Below are positions 2,242 to 13,940 of a DNA stretch of 44,439 nucleotides, piece after piece. The stretch is from assembly GCA_012034765.1 (NCBI GenBank), contig JAAUOU010000026.1, positions 1 through 44,439 on the forward strand. Direction: 5' to 3'. The translations under genes were made by a program, and so were the position numbers. Every line of letters begins with the position of its first letter. Position 1 is the first letter of the stretch. The notes beneath the pieces are model-generated. The model worked only from the letters and a program-made list of their open reading frames with translations, did no database searches and had not been told where the DNA came from. The stretch comes from Pleurocapsaceae cyanobacterium CSU_1_1. GTDB taxonomy: Bacteria; Cyanobacteriota; Cyanobacteriia; Cyanobacteriales; Xenococcaceae.

Positions 2242-3012
2242 ATGGTCAAATTTAACAACATAGAAGTAGCAACAGACGAGATAAACACCTATCTTCAGCA
2301 GGAGTTCAAGCTGAAACAAATTTGCAGCGAGATTTTATATCAGAAAATTATTGCCGAAGCTACTGCTGCTAGAAATATTAACGTCACTGAAGTTGAAATT
2401 GAAGCCGAAGCCAACAAAATTCGCAGTTCTCTGCGTTTGGAAAAGGCAGCAGACACCTTAGCTTGGTTAAAGGATAATTTACTCGATCCAGAACAGTGGG
2501 AAATTGCGATCAACAATCATCTGATGCGACAAAAACTAGCACAACATTTGTTTGATTCTAAAGTGGAAGCATATTTTGCCCAGAATCGCTTAGATTTTGA
2601 CCGATTTGTGCTTTATCAGTTAGTTGTTCCCTATGAAAAACTAGCTCAAGAACTTTTCTATCAAATAGAAGAAGAAGAAATTAGTTTTTACCAGGCGGCT
2701 CACCTCTATGATATCGATCACCAACGTCGCAATGTATGTGGCTTTGAAGGGGAAGTACACCGCTGGAACTATCCTCCTGATATTGCTGCTATCATCTTCA
2801 AAACGCCAGTTATGACTGGAGAACTAATCCATCCGATTAAATCCAACCAGGGCTACCATCTGTTTAAAATTGAAGATTACTTGCCCGCCCAGCTTACACC
2901 AAAAATAAGACAAGAGATTATTGATCGGCTATTTGGGCAGTGGCTGAATAGTGAATTAAGTTACCTAATTCACAATCAACTTGCCCCCAGCAAGGAACAA
3001 TTTACTCAATAG
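2242..3012 (+). CDS. Parvulin/PpiC-type peptidyl-prolyl isomerase of the export locus
   Basis: A 256-residue protein. The N-terminal half is helical and charged, like the chaperone part of SurA/PpiC proteins. The parvulin-like domain is around residues 120-225, with the signature order Gly-rich turn (CGFEGEVHRW), the helix PPDIAAIIFKTPVMTGEL, then the strand IKSNQGYHLFKIEDY. There is no signal peptide or membrane segment, so it probably acts in the cytoplasm. It is divergent from peptide B and convergent with the HetC-like exporter, leaving only 37 bases between stops. PpiC-type genes often accompany C39/HlyD export loci in cyanobacteria (family knowledge), where they may keep substrates export-competent or act as a maturation factor (inference). 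AAGGA lies about 11 bases before the ATG. Confidence 0.8.
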   Translation: MVKFNNIEVATDEINTYLQQEFKLKQICSEILYQKIIAEATAARNINVTEVEIEAEANKIRSSLRLEKAADTLAWLKDNLLDPEQWEIAINNHLMRQKLAQHLFDSKVEAYFAQNRLDFDRFVLYQLVVPYEKLAQELFYQIEEEEISFYQAAHLYDIDHQRRNVCGFEGEVHRWNYPPDIAAIIFKTPVMTGELIHPIKSNQGYHLFKIEDYLPAQLTPKIRQEIIDRLFGQWLNSELSYLIHNQLAPSKEQFTQ

Positions 3013-3049: not shown

Positions 3050-6000
3050 CTATAGACTCAACTGCTGTTTAGCTAGTTCATAGTAAAGTCCATTGAGGGC
3101 AAACAGTTCGTCATGAGTTCCTTGTTCAACTACTAGACCTCGATCTAAGACCACAATGCAGTCTGCATTACGGACTGTGGAAAGACGATGGGCAATAATA
3201 AAAGTAGTACGGTGTCGAGAAAGACGAGCTAGATTGTCTTGAAAACGCCTTTCAGACTCTGTGTCGAGAGAACTAGTTGCTTCATCTAAGATTAAAATCG
3301 GCGGATCTCCTAAAAAGGCGCGAGCGATCGCAATTCGCTGGCGTTGACCACCAGAAAGATTATCTCCCCGCTCACCAACTTTGGTGTTATATCCTAACGG
3401 TAAAGACTGAATAAAAGCATGAGCTTCTGCTAGTTTGGCAGTAGCAATTACTTGCTCTAGGGTAAATTCAGATCGGTATAAAGTAATATTTTCTAAAATA
3501 GTGCCTGAAAATAGATAGCAGCTTTGTGGCACGACTCCCATTTGCGATCGCAAAGATTGTAAAGAAATATGCTTAAGATTGTGTCCATCAACTGATATAT
3601 TCCCATTTACAGGGTGATACATTCCCTGGATCAGCTTCACTAGCGTACTTTTCCCGATCCACTGCGACCAACAATCGCGATCGTCTGCCCCGCTCGTACC
3701 TTCAAAGTGATATTTTGTAATATATTTCTTTCTTCATCACTTTCGTAGCGGAAGGTAACATTATCTAGATAAATATCGCCGTTTAGTTGGGGCAAGACTA
3801 GTTTATCAGATTGAAAAGGTTCTTCGGTTTTGGCATCAAAGACATCATTAAGTCTTTCTACTGAAATAAATACTTCCTGTAATTCATCCCATACCCCCAC
3901 CAATACCAAAACAGGACTAATAATATAGCCTTTCATCATATTGAAGGCGACATACTGACCAATACTTAGTTCTCCTTTAATTACTAAAGTTGCCCCATAC
4001 CAAAGCAACGCAGCTCCACCAATAGTATTAATCATGTTGCTTAAAAAGCCTAGATTAATTGCCAGTTTTTGCCCCTTGAACTGCACGTTTAACTGACGGG
4101 TTAGCAGCTCCTCCCAACGCCAGCGTAAATCTTTTTCGGCCGTAACAGATTTGACGGTAGAAATCCCCGTCATCATTTCTACTAAAGAAGAATTTTGATC
4201 GGCAGTAGCATTAAATCTTTCTCGCGAAACTTTTCGCAGCAGTGGAGTAGCAGTGAGGGTCAAGATGACAATGGGCGGAATCAAACATAAGATCAAGGCT
4301 GTTAGCTTCCAGTTGTAATAAAGCATCAAACCCAGATAGACAAATCCAGTGAAAAAGTCTAACCAAGAAAGCAATACGTTCCCAATCAAAAACTGTTGAA
4401 TCTTTTGATTTTCTTGAACCCGAGTAATAATATCTCCCACCCGACGGGATTCAAAAAACTTGAGGGGCAGGTTTAAAGCATGATTAATAAATCCACTAAT
4501 CATGGTTAAGTCGAGACGGTTGGATAAATAGCTCAATAAATAGGTACGTATTGAAGTTAAGCCACCTCCCAAAACCCCAAATAGCAGCATTCCAATCACT
4601 AAAGCATTCAAAGTAGATTGACTTCGATTAACCACCACCTGATCCAGAATGATCTGAGTAAATAGAGGCGATACCAAACCAATAAGCTGAATTAAAATAG
4701 AGGCAATAATGATCGTTATGCTGATCGAACGATATGGCAACAGTAGCGAGAAAAACCGCCCCAATGTGCGCTTTTGGGTTGGAGCATCGGCTAAAGCATT
4801 GGTTGGTTCGAGCAATAAAGCAAATCCCGTCCAGGAATTAAGAAACTCTGAACGATCCTGTTCAGACTTCCCTGCTGCTGGGTCGGCAACCAGAACTCTG
4901 TCTCCTTTGACGCGATAAACGACTACATAGTGATCCCCTTGCCAATGAGCAATCCAAGGATTTTTTTGCTCGACAATACGACTCAAACTAGCTCTTACAG
5001 GGCGAGCATGATAGCCCAACTTTTCGGCAGCAACGGCTAAATTTTTGAGAGATGCCCCAGAACGTCCGATCCCAATTAGCTCACGTAAATAATTGATACC
5101 TACCGATTTGCCCCAATATCGGCTAATCATGGCAAGGCAAGCCGCACCGCAGTCAGAAGAACTTTGTTGTTCAATATGGGGATAAGTTTGCCAAAGACCG
5201 CGACGTTTGGTGGGCTTGGGATAATCAATTTCCTGTTCTGGGTCTACTGTGGCGAGCTGTTCTTCTGGGGCTGCTTCAGCTTGGTAATTAACTGCTAAAC
5301 TCGGTGAATTAACTACTGCCAGAGCATTGATATTATTAGAGACTCTGGGATTAAGTAATAATGACTGATTAGCTGAAGGCGGGGAGTTGGTTTGCCAAGA
5401 GATTATTAATTCAGGAGCTAATTCTGTGAAATTTTTCCAGTTTGCTGGCGACAATTCATAAAACAGCAGGACAGTTTGAGATGTCCAGTCGGGCGTTGTC
5501 GACGGATAGCCCCAAGAATCGCCGATCTTCAAGGTTTGGTCTTTAACCTGACCGTTTCGTAGCCAAAACCGAATGTTTTTCTCTTTAGCCACTACTTTAG
5601 TACCTGCTCTAATTTTTTTTTCGGTTAGATAGGGTAATAATTGTCTAAGACGGAGACTAGAGAGAAAACGTAACTCAGTCTGAGTTTTAAAGAAAATTAA
5701 TTTTTGCTGTTCATGAATGACAATTCGCCATTTTAAGGCAAGTTCTGGCAGCTTTTTGAGAAAAGGCTTGAGTTTTTCTAAAGTAATTCGAGCAACTTGA
5801 ACCTTACTTGCTGCTTGTACTTTATATGCTAAAGGACTTTCATACCAAAAAGAGTGAGCGCCAAAAATTTCGCCTTCCAACAATAAACTAGTTGAAGCTT
5901 CTCGTTTTTTATCAGCATCAAAGCCCAATAATCTAGCTCTGCCTTCGCAGACTAAAAAAAAATGTTGCTCATTGTCCGATGATGAATTTGAATTAGATCC

Positions 6001-6186
6001 ATCAGGCTGAATTGTAATCTGCTCTCCCAATTCATATTCTTGGATTGCAAACTCTTGACTGAGCAATTCCAGTATGGGTATTTTTTCTGAAGAAAATTGA
6101 CTTTGGCTTGACAACAAATTTAGAATTAGCGATCGCTTTTCCACTTGATTATTAGTAGATGACGATTGGGCTTTAATGATATCCAC
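3050..6186 (-). CDS. HetC-like C39 peptidase ABC exporter, frameshifted in Walker A
   Basis: With one base restored this encodes about 1045 residues. Domains in order: cyclic-nucleotide-binding-like region (about 30-150), a second degenerate one (about 160-260), C39 peptidase (about 335-460) with C346, H419 and D435 all present (SSSDCGAACL, GDHYVVVY, VADPAAG), ABC membrane domain (about 475-760), and ABC ATPase. This architecture is that of HetC, the Anabaena heterocyst-development exporter homologue. The family cuts double-glycine leaders and exports the peptide. The frame breaks at 3649-3655: the first frame ends GRSGSGKVR-stop, and the next frame carries STLVKLIQGM, the LSGGQRQR signature and Walker B ILILDEATSSLD. 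One extra A in the A4 run would restore GSGKST. The break lies in G-GGA-AAA, a -1 slippery heptamer, so recoding, real mutation and sequencing error are all open. If the break is real, the product is a membrane peptidase without ATPase. It is the last gene of an apparent hlyD-hetP-hetC-like set. Confidence 0.85.
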
Positions 6187-6322: not shown

Positions 6323-6709
6323 TTAGGCAACAAACAGACGAGATAAAATTCTCATGGGTAAGCTTTTTTGACCTCCTTTTACCGTACTAGATTGATGCTC
6401 TACATCTTCTAAGCAGTATAAATCTAGATCTTTAATCTGAGCGGATTTCTGGTTGTTTTTAGCTTCGCTAAAATGGCTTACCTTAGCAGTATGCTGTGAC
6501 ATCTGTATTGGTTCGCGATTGCTTTTCATCAATCGGTTATATGTTCGATAAGGAATATAGTGTAAGGGATTATATCCAGAAAAACGCAAAATCAACAGAC
6601 ATGCCCAGGAATATTTTCCTGATAAAATAGCGTCAACTACCTGGTTAAATTGCTCATTAGTCATTGTTCTATTGAGCTGAGAATCAGAAGAATAAGATTT
6701 GTTGTACAT
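6323..6709 (-). CDS. HetP-like protein with a C-terminal double-glycine leader-like motif
   Basis: 128 residues. Residues about 16-64 carry the HetP family signature, including AILSGKYSWACLLILRFSGY followed by NPLHYIPYRTYNRL. HetP proteins promote commitment to heterocyst fate in Anabaena, where hetP lies next to hetC; the same pairing occurs here. Residues 92-113 read like a peptidase leader: I-K-D-L-D-L-Y-C-L-E then STVKGG. This compares closely with the I-S-D-L-Q-Y-I-E...EVQGG of the small peptides in this locus. Cleavage after G113 would release the basic 15-mer QKSLPMRILSRLFVA. That the neighbouring C39 exporter cuts here is inference. It lies 46 bases after the HlyD gene and is probably cotranscribed with it. 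The presence of HetC/HetP homologues does not by itself show that this organism makes heterocysts. Confidence 0.85.
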   Translation of the reverse strand: MYNKSYSSDSQLNRTMTNEQFNQVVDAILSGKYSWACLLILRFSGYNPLHYIPYRTYNRLMKSNREPIQMSQHTAKVSHFSEAKNNQKSAQIKDLDLYCLEDVEHQSSTVKGGQKSLPMRILSRLFVA

Positions 6710-6755: not shown

Positions 6756-8405
6756 TTATAAATCAACGCCATCTTGTCGCATTTTTTTAACTGGATCTAG
6801 CAGCACATCAATAATGCGACGGTGGCGAATCACAATATCAGCACTAGCTGTTTGCCCTGGTTTAAACGAAATCTTTTTCAAATTGTCAGTCACATAGTTG
6901 CGTTCGAGTTCAATTCTTACTCGATACACTTCCCCTAATTTTTCATCGGTTTGACTATTTGTTGAGATGGAAATTACTTTTCCAGGAATTATTCCATAAT
7001 CTTGATAGGAATAAGCATCAAATTTGACCTGTGCAGTCATCCCTTTTTTGATAAAGCCAGCATCTCGATCTGGTAATATAGCCGAAAGTACTAAAGGAGA
7101 TTTATCAGGCGCAATTTCGGCGACAGTTTCTCCTGGTTGTATTACTTTGCCTGTATTGACTACATTAAAAGCTAGAACTGTTCCAGCTACGGGAGCTTTA
7201 AGTGATTTTTTTTCTAACTGACTTTGGGCAGTTGCTAGAAGATTTTTAGTTTCAGCAATTTTACTCTTAGCTTGGTTAATTTCTAGCTCTAGCTGCTGGG
7301 CTTTCTGTTTAGCTGTTACCTCCAGTCGAAGACTATCGGCTTTTTTAGCTTCTAGCTCTGTTTGAAGGCGTTCAGCTTCTTTTTGAGCCTCAGCCAATGC
7401 TCCTTGATTCTCAGTGATACTAGATCTCATGTTCCTAGTAGACTGCTGAGACTGATATACTTGCTCATTAATACTACTAATCCCTTGCAGTTTGCTATCA
7501 ATCAACTGTTGTTCGATTTGGCGTTGTGCCTGTTGAGCCTGAAAAATATATTCTTGTGAGATTGCGCCCTGTTCAGCAAGTTCTTTGAGCTTTGCTAGTC
7601 TTTGTTGATGTTCTTTTAATTCAGCGCTAATTTGATTAAATTTAGCTTTATCCAACCCTGGCAGTTGCGCTGTTTGTCCTTGTCTTGTGATATTGGCTGA
7701 GAGTTCAGACTGTTGTTGTGCCAATAAATCACTAGTAATCTGTGCTTTGGAAATTGCCGATTCAATAGCTAATTTTTGCGAGCGGATCTCAGCTAGACCA
7801 ATTCTGCGTTGGCTTTCGACTTCAATCTTAACTTGTTCTAATAAATTAAGTTTTTGGCGCAGTTCAACCTGGCTAGAAGCCAAAATTTCTCTAAGTCTTT
7901 CAACTTCTTTAGTTTCTCGTCCTGAATCTAAAGTGGCGATTAGCTGTCCAGCTTTAACTTTTTCTCCCTCTTTAACCTCAATAGTGCTGATCTTGGCAGC
8001 TTCTAGGGATTCGATTTTGTAGGCTTCTCCTTTGGGGACTAACTTTCCTTGAGCTTTACCTATCTGATCGATTTGACCAAACCAAGCCCAGGCAAAGAAA
8101 GTTAAGCAAAATACAACTCCGCCTGCAATTAATTGCAGGGGAAAGTTAGATGGAGGTTCTTCCAGTAAAGACTGCATCGCTGGAGACCACTGAACTAGTT
8201 CTGCTTGACTATGACTATTAGCGACAGTTAGAGCAGAAGATTGCTGTTCGGGTTTGACGATGGCTAGCTGAGATTCTTCAGGTTCTGGCGTATTCCTTAA
8301 AAGTTGGGAACTATTCTCTGGGGTATGATGGGAGACATTTTCAGCCTCTTGGTGAGAATTACCGTTTATGAACTTAGCTAGCTTTACTTTTGGCAATATT
8401 TTCAT
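6756..8405 (-). CDS. HlyD-family membrane fusion protein
   Basis: 549 residues. A long cytoplasmic N-terminal tail of about 88 residues precedes one membrane helix (about 90-110, LIAGGVVFCLTFFAWAWFG). Then come a biotinyl-lipoyl half-domain (IEVKEGEKVKAGQLIATLDS), a long Gln/Lys/Glu-rich coiled coil, and the second lipoyl half (LKAPVAGTVLAFNVV). The C-terminus is the beta-barrel region. This is the usual type I secretion adaptor that links an inner-membrane ABC exporter to an outer-membrane channel. It heads the minus-strand set that continues with the HetP-like and HetC-like genes, so the HetC-like exporter is its probable partner. No TolC-like gene is present in the window. The ATG has only a weak upstream AAAGAG. 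Confidence 0.9.
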   Translation of the reverse strand: MKILPKVKLAKFINGNSHQEAENVSHHTPENSSQLLRNTPEPEESQLAIVKPEQQSSALTVANSHSQAELVQWSPAMQSLLEEPPSNFPLQLIAGGVVFCLTFFAWAWFGQIDQIGKAQGKLVPKGEAYKIESLEAAKISTIEVKEGEKVKAGQLIATLDSGRETKEVERLREILASSQVELRQKLNLLEQVKIEVESQRRIGLAEIRSQKLAIESAISKAQITSDLLAQQQSELSANITRQGQTAQLPGLDKAKFNQISAELKEHQQRLAKLKELAEQGAISQEYIFQAQQAQRQIEQQLIDSKLQGISSINEQVYQSQQSTRNMRSSITENQGALAEAQKEAERLQTELEAKKADSLRLEVTAKQKAQQLELEINQAKSKIAETKNLLATAQSQLEKKSLKAPVAGTVLAFNVVNTGKVIQPGETVAEIAPDKSPLVLSAILPDRDAGFIKKGMTAQVKFDAYSYQDYGIIPGKVISISTNSQTDEKLGEVYRVRIELERNYVTDNLKKISFKPGQTASADIVIRHRRIIDVLLDPVKKMRQDGVDL

Positions 8406-13523: not shown

Positions 13524-13940
13524 GTGCGATCGATTAATTTTCTAACCTTTTTAGTTTGGCAAGAGCAGCATCAGATAACTTTGAACGTTGGAGAAATGAC
13601 CGTAATGATGCAGTATTTCTTCCAAGGCTGGAACTGTCGTGGCCCTGCGAAATACAAAGATATGATGCTTGATATTGCTACCGAAGAAATCGGACATATC
13701 GAGATGCTGGCAACTACCATGGCTTATTTACTTGACAATGCTCCTCTTGAGCAAAAAGAAGCAGCAGTAAAAGACCCGATTATGCAGGGTGTTATGGGTG
13801 GCATGAAAGCCGAAGACATTATCATGTCAAGCATGAATCCACAGCACGCTACAGTTAGTGGCGGTGGTGCATTACCTGCTGATAGTACAGGCTATCCTTG
13901 GAATGGTCGTTATGTATCTGCTTTAACCGAGACAATCTAA
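13524..13940 (+). pseudogene. Manganese catalase fragment
   Basis: 138 codons. From about residue 23 the frame matches the middle of non-haem manganese catalase: GEMTVMMQYFFQGWNCRGPA, then ATEEIGHIEMLATTMAYLL, MNPQHATVSGGGA and YPWNGRYVSA. The first part of the four-helix bundle, which contributes the first metal ligand, is absent and replaced by unrelated codons. The C-terminal half, with the remaining ligands, is lost after residue 133. A full protein has about 230-300 residues. The fragment keeps only part of the dimetal site, so it should not work. It sits in a run of truncated genes. Confidence 0.75.

Follow-up and report, generated by a model that had tools for sequence, protein, structure and literature searches.

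The DNA analysed here, called the window below, is a stretch of 44,439 nucleotides of contig JAAUOU010000026.1 from Pleurocapsaceae cyanobacterium CSU_1_1, near the start of which a HetP-like protein of 128 residues plus a stop codon is encoded on the minus strand (6323-6709). The protein matches the HetP family model NF037966 with 118.7 bits against a cut-off of 45 over residues 4-64, placing the HetP domain at 6518-6700 (minus). Upstream on the same strand lies a gene for an HlyD-family adaptor (6756-8405; TIGR01843, 232.7 bits, cut-off 208.65), and the next gene 3' of the HetP-like gene, also on the minus strand and separated from its open frame by 119 bp, encodes a C39-peptidase ABC exporter (PCAT), which bears out the statement of the earlier note that a C39 peptidase gene sits just downstream. 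The 5' part of the PCAT gene (3640-6186, minus) carries matches to PF03412, PF00664 and cNMP_binding, and the remainder of the nucleotide-binding domain follows in another frame (3050-3640, minus; PF00005, 81.7 bits), so that cyclic-nucleotide-binding-like, C39, membrane and ATPase regions are all represented. The frame is broken inside the Walker A motif, near 3640 (3600-3720), and the break may be either real or an assembly error; the PCAT of Pleurocapsa sp. CCALA 161 (L176) is a single open frame of 1056 codons. The source genome has six further C39 places besides this one.

Farther on, small precursor genes and a rotamase gene follow. Two small precursors on the minus strand, at 141-368 and 1689-1979, share the same leader, MIISDLQYIESADNSEVQGG. 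A third small open frame on this strand (1050-1358) starts with MIIHDLEFFNCCNKEYQKSDFAIAGG, a leader-like N-terminus ending in AIAGG, and is absent from the window's matches above 0 bits to the leader profile described below; it is possibly a third, divergent precursor, judging from this N-terminus. The rotamase, of PpiC type (2242-3012, plus; PF00639), resembles the peptide-maturation proteins of TIGR04500 at 54.3 bits, below the cut-off of 180, and similar frames recur across many loci that combine HetP and PCAT. Elsewhere in the window, a manganese catalase match at 13524-13940 spans only profile positions 32-137 of 284, as a short or broken copy would.

The predicted structure of the HetP-like protein differs between its domain and its tail. 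AlphaFold2 predicts three helices within residues 18-64, with block-mean pLDDT above 90 for residues 21-60, and pLDDT below 50 for nearly all of residues 71-128; a Foldseek comparison of the model with the PDB gave zero matches at E up to 0.001. The low-pLDDT tail contains residues 92-113, IKDLDLYCLEDVEHQSSTVKGG, which end in KGG and form the putative double-glycine leader (6371-6436, minus), followed directly after the GG by the 15 residues 114-128, QKSLPMRILSRLFVA (6326-6370, minus), the two together occupying 6326-6436. This 15-mer had been described as basic and amphipathic: basic it is, with a net charge of +3, but its hydrophobic moment is ordinary for its composition, 51% of shuffles being equally high or higher. 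The closest named relative, among the best 80 of 385, is the HetP of Pleurocapsa sp. CCALA 161, with 96% identity; the two loci are 93.5% identical in DNA over 7.2 kb and differ in zero codons over the 15-mer stretch. The Pleurocapsa group is not known to form heterocysts. Among the same best 80 of 385, the relative L177 reads KLKDLHYLENIEHQSAQVKGG and then a 15-mer, and L179 reads KFHDLCCLEEVDRQSQKIKGG.

That HetP proteins may be peptide precursors is already in print. According to the accessible text of Wang 2011 (PMC3140520), HetP-like proteins adjoin bacteriocin clusters, carry the motif KIxDLxYLEx10GG and were suggested to be precursors, and Micallef 2015 (PMC4558948) reports the motif in one HetP per Subsection V genome. 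The window's protein belongs to the same family and stands, like those proposed precursors, beside C39-ABC genes; it has the x10GG spacing, with LDLYCLE in place of IxDLxYLE. The window leader is thus divergent in sequence, and for this reason its tail does not pass the strict IxDLxYLE..GG regular expression. It also begins at residue 92 of 128, away from the N-terminal position expected of a double-glycine PCAT substrate. Its best register is D96-L97-Y98-C99-L100-E101, equated with D-L-x-Y-L-E, and a sister genome has DLCCLE at the same place. The result rightly rediscovers a published motif and puts stronger evidence behind it. The 13 HetPs of Wang and the one per Subsection V genome that Micallef treats as bacteriocin precursors are here extended to 147 HetPs, and, relative to those two papers as far as their accessible text goes, what is added is a leader common to the small precursors and its loss paired with the loss of HetC. 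New in this analysis are the common leader, the link to PCAT and HetC, and the selective constraint.

For this comparison, 388 genomes of the class were searched with NF037966, 96 of them giving matches; the 146 places listed outside the window were retrieved in 144 loci, each with flanks of about 9 kb as far as the contigs reach. The 147 HetP frames read include the window's own; one is partial (L175), one runs off its contig (L148), and the HetP of Nostoc (Anabaena) sp. PCC 7120 was not seen in the fetched loci. The strict regular expression is passed by 62 of the 147 tails, compared with a mean of 0.014 and a maximum of 1 of 147 over 500 rounds of shuffling. From 60 distinct tails picked by the motif with GG, a HetP-tail profile was built; because they were picked in this way, only positions left free by the pattern count as evidence of conservation, such as position -4 of the leader, where 48 of the 60 have V or I. 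By the automatic profile call, leader and GG are present in 69 of 147 HetPs, and 60 of 147 have a HetP domain and no leader match at all. In the GG-bearing HetPs, mean column identity is 0.78 for the HetP domain against 0.51 for the leader. The named relatives (83 HetPs) are the best 80 of 385 when ranked by similarity to the query and therefore form no neutral sample; they comprise 50 HetPs with GG and PCAT, 11 with GG and without PCAT, 5 with GG on a cut contig, 9 with a leader lacking GG and 8 with neither. In two Xenococcus HetPs (L182 and L197), GS replaces GG beside a PCAT frame of more than 1000 codons. On the sequences of these tails, the HetP-tail leader is real, beyond chance.

The same profile reaches the small open frames nearby. 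Run against the 19,074 small open frames of the loci, with HetP removed, it gives 78 matches of at least 10 bits, against 0 in shuffled copies, and 90 of at least 8 bits, against 1; two of its matches are the precursors of the window, at 12.9 bits (141-368) and 12.3 bits (1689-1979). Conversely, when one 20-residue leader of the window served as the seed, the profile grown from it reached 99 N-terminal leaders, with the consensus MIISDLNYLETVEASNVEGG; at a threshold of 5 bits this profile matches 62 of 147 HetP tails and 0 of 2940 shuffled ones. Among the matches of at least 8 bits in the 22,445 open frames of the loci, HetPs alone have the leader starting beyond the first 80 residues; the other 93 matches all begin within that stretch. 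Small frames with the leader (at least 8 bits) share a locus with 36 of the 59 HetPs that have both GG and PCAT; the figures are 4 of 10 for HetPs having only GG, 5 of 21 for those having only PCAT and 0 of 57 when both are missing. The window's own tail scores 17.0 bits with the HetP-tail profile, whose 60 tails do not include it, where the best of 2940 shuffled tails reaches 9.7; in the reverse test with the small-peptide profile it scores 1.8 bits and the best shuffle 4.6. The likeness between residues 92-113 and the leader of the small peptides, proposed in the earlier note, stands on the 17.0 bits and on the cross-matching of the profiles, but the tyrosine it relied on does not fall on the conserved one, since the best register is the one given above. 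That HetP tails and small precursors have a leader in common is well supported by these profile comparisons.

Leader and GG are associated with an adjoining PCAT. Adjacent here means that a PCAT of at least 600 aa lies no more than 4 kb from HetP. After 16 contig-cut rows are dropped (7 GG, 9 non-GG), 59 GG HetPs have a PCAT and 3 do not, and 21 non-GG HetPs have one and 48 do not (Fisher p 1.8e-15, kinship uncorrected). When each genus and state is counted once, the corresponding figures are 40 and 2 for GG and 14 and 17 for non-GG (p 1.5e-6), and at the family level the link is not significant (Fisher p 0.37). Ten genera have both kinds of HetP; in g97, g8, g22, g67, g111 and g6 a PCAT accompanies only the GG copies, and the reverse occurs in none of the ten. 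A tree on the HetP domain (about 55 residues) offers only one or two pairs on supported branches for setting GG against PCAT. The adaptor follows a similar pattern: an HlyD gene on HetP's strand and no more than 800 bp away accompanies 57 of 69 GG HetPs versus 9 of 78 non-GG ones. Conservation of the GG and of the upstream positions in relatives beside hetC, on which the earlier note had made its idea depend, is seen in the leader with GG of 59 of the 80 PCAT-adjacent HetPs (21 lack it by the automatic call), and of 48 of 56 with HlyD and PCAT on one strand, again by that call. The eight exceptions among the 56 are L095, L133 and L139, in which GG is clear by eye and which count as non-GG in the PCAT comparison above too, as well as L032, which reads GS, one that runs off its contig, and L089, L152 and L171, which lack such a tail. 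When only PCAT-adjacent HetPs with a leader match are considered, GG is present in 59 of 70, and of the 59 PCATs that adjoin GG HetPs, 53 show the Cys and His motifs of the C39 domain by regular expression. As separate observations, two genomes each have, at one locus with one PCAT, two GG-tailed HetPs with unlike cores (L169 and L170), and at L216 and L239 a GG-tailed HetP stands beside HlyD, and the roughly 8 kb of flanking DNA retrieved there contain zero C39 frames.

In Nostoc (Anabaena) sp. PCC 7120, the C39-ABC exporter that adjoins hetP is HetC, an arrangement like that of the window (PMC10986499). That paper, published in 2024, demonstrates the peptidase activity of HetC, reports no leader-bearing gene near hetC, points to the substrate as what should be looked for next and raises the question of peptides derived from HetP, as its accessible text has it. 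In contrast, one genus of 13 genomes in the present sample, which holds Anabaena azotica and Nostoc parmelioides, has in every genome a HetP with a leader like KIKDLAYLEVVGKQKTEIRGG followed by 33-42 residues. Upstream of it, among the matches listed, a near-full-length HetC match with 67-100% identity is found in 11 of the 13 genomes, and the other two (L238 and L242) have a PCAT of 1045 aa, so that leader and GG are kept in 13 of 13 HetPs with a long PCAT upstream, in line with the conservation expected above. In these 13 HetPs, dN/dS is 0.07 for the domain, 0.24 for the linker, 0.07 for the leader up to GG and 0.29 for the core; the leader is under selection as strong as that on the HetP domain in this genus, and the core is the fastest-evolving part.

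The opposite situation is met in family f6 of the sample, which comprises 23 genomes and is Nostocaceae by the named contigs within it. Among the matches listed, HetC matches above 900 bits occur in 5 of the 23 genomes, with the next matches below 720. Six f6 HetPs stand beside HetC, five with GG and one (L089) without the tail; among the genomes without HetC, again by the matches listed, GG is lost in 15 of 18 and kept in L034, L053 and L061, two of which have a damaged leader (Fisher p 0.007 for GG loss against HetC loss, kinship uncorrected). All 15 GG-less HetPs retain a remnant of the leader, such as KIKDIAYMEV, and in 13 HetC-less HetPs its dN/dS is 0.14 versus 0.30 for the linker; since it is constrained without HetC, the remnant may serve some other use. 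Three Nostoc loci (L237, L249 and L255) have only short C39-bearing frames upstream, and their HetPs retain GG with an altered leader (KDRAYLE). Frames of this kind, of 84-260 codons, are the only C39-bearing ones upstream of hetP in these three loci and in L234 and L220, where the HetP leader changes, and the order of events suggested by these sequences is that HetC may decay first in Nostoc-type loci. Genome G381 holds two HetC-HetP pairs (L089 and L041), one HetP being GG-tailed and the other tail-less. In Nodularia spumigena, hetP is present and hetC absent, according to the accessible text of PMC3610870.

Since the leader is kept mainly beside a matching PCAT, the regulator is probably the source of an exported peptide as well. 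The reading that we find reasonably probable is that the HetP-like protein combines a folded regulator domain with a built-in C-terminal peptide precursor, which is cut and exported by the adjoining PCAT. Its predicted disordered tail would bear the same double-glycine leader as the start of the nearby small precursors; the C39 domain of the adjoining PCAT would bind this leader and cut HetP after GG; the PCAT would export the C-terminal core, 15 residues in the window protein; and the HetP domain with the leader would remain in the cytosol. Recognition of the leader is the well-supported part of this proposal, judging from the comparisons above, and we infer from them the binding by C39, the cut after GG, the export and any signal role of the core. 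Likewise, the release of the 15-mer by cleavage and the double function of HetP, both put forward in the earlier note, would follow by inference. The fast evolution of the core fits a strain-specific signal or antagonist, and equally weak constraint. No report of HetP cleavage was found in the accessible text of the open-licence literature. A partly similar system is that of EbfG1-4 and PteB in Synechococcus elongatus PCC 7942, where secretion of GG proteins is efficient only with the PCAT peptidase domain (PMC4997328); EbfG1-4 are small secreted proteins, unlike the window's regulator domain with its C-terminal leader.

Published work on PCC 7120 bears on whether the tail is cut at all. According to the accessible text of Corrales-Guerrero 2014 (PMC4133259), a HetC peptidase mutant forms heterocysts again when given extra hetP, and HetP with a C-terminal GFP is cytoplasmic and near the heterocyst poles, alike in the wild type and in the strain with an altered HetC peptidase. 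Because additional hetP is effective even when this peptidase stretch of HetC is lost, cutting is not essential to the regulatory role of HetP, and the cytoplasmic GFP speaks against quantitative cutting and export of the tail, although the bulky GFP could itself block cutting. Docking without cutting is therefore the main rival: the tail would bind C39 and anchor HetP, uncut, at the exporter, which HetP would sense or regulate. HetC-GFP likewise concentrates near the poles (PMC4133259), the leader positions are more constrained than the core, and the leader remnant stays constrained after GG is lost, all of which this rival would accommodate. However, GG tracks the exporter, both in the 59 of 70 PCAT-adjacent HetPs with a leader and throughout the 13-genome genus, binding alone has no obvious need of GG, and the catalytic motifs are retained in most of the C39 domains; docking as the sole role of the tail thus seems unlikely to us. 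The constraint on the remnant at a dN/dS of 0.14 without HetC would also suit a tail that serves HetP itself as an interaction motif and resembles a secretion leader by convergence. This is very improbable, given that the profiles cross-match in both directions with zero shuffled matches at the thresholds used and that loss of the leader with GG goes with the absence of PCAT.

It is also conceivable that the HetP domain is merely a very long leader, as in NHLP and Nif11 precursors, and that the exported peptide is the sole product outside heterocyst formers, a view that finds some encouragement in the window's closest named relative among the best 80 of 385, a Pleurocapsa. Wang 2011 places HetP-type proteins alongside NHLP and N11P precursors, and in the window protein, as in those, a longer protein-derived stretch precedes the GG site (PMC3140520). 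Unlike those precursors, the window protein has zero matches to the NHLP and N11P leader models of NCBIfam at E up to 1, the HetP domain is much better conserved than the leader, and the 60 HetPs with the domain and no leader match argue against a domain that serves only as leader, so that we consider this quite improbable. The paper of Wang 2011 further suggests a link to an M16 protease (PMC3140520), whereas the statistical partner found here is PCAT. A regular expression for HxxEH, rather than a profile, applied to frames of 330-1000 aa within about 9 kb on each side found an M16-like frame in the fetched locus of 0 of the 69 GG HetPs; cutting of HetP by M16 was rejected on this ground and would be the least credible of these readings.

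A regulator with a built-in precursor, cut by the adjoining PCAT, leads to a wider and distinctly more tentative proposal, which can be regarded as possible: HetP would be the substrate of HetC, one cut yielding a retained regulator of commitment and the precursor of an exported signal, in an arrangement older than heterocysts that derived from PCAT-HlyD-HetP clusters for peptide export in simpler cyanobacteria and was dismantled with the loss of HetC. If true, a single cut would convert a regulator and emit a peptide signal in one step. The HetPs of the 13-genome genus offer a named candidate substrate and a putative cut site, and with them the question of the HetC substrate becomes directly testable. 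The possible history is one in which a peptide-export cluster was turned into part of a switch for cell differentiation.
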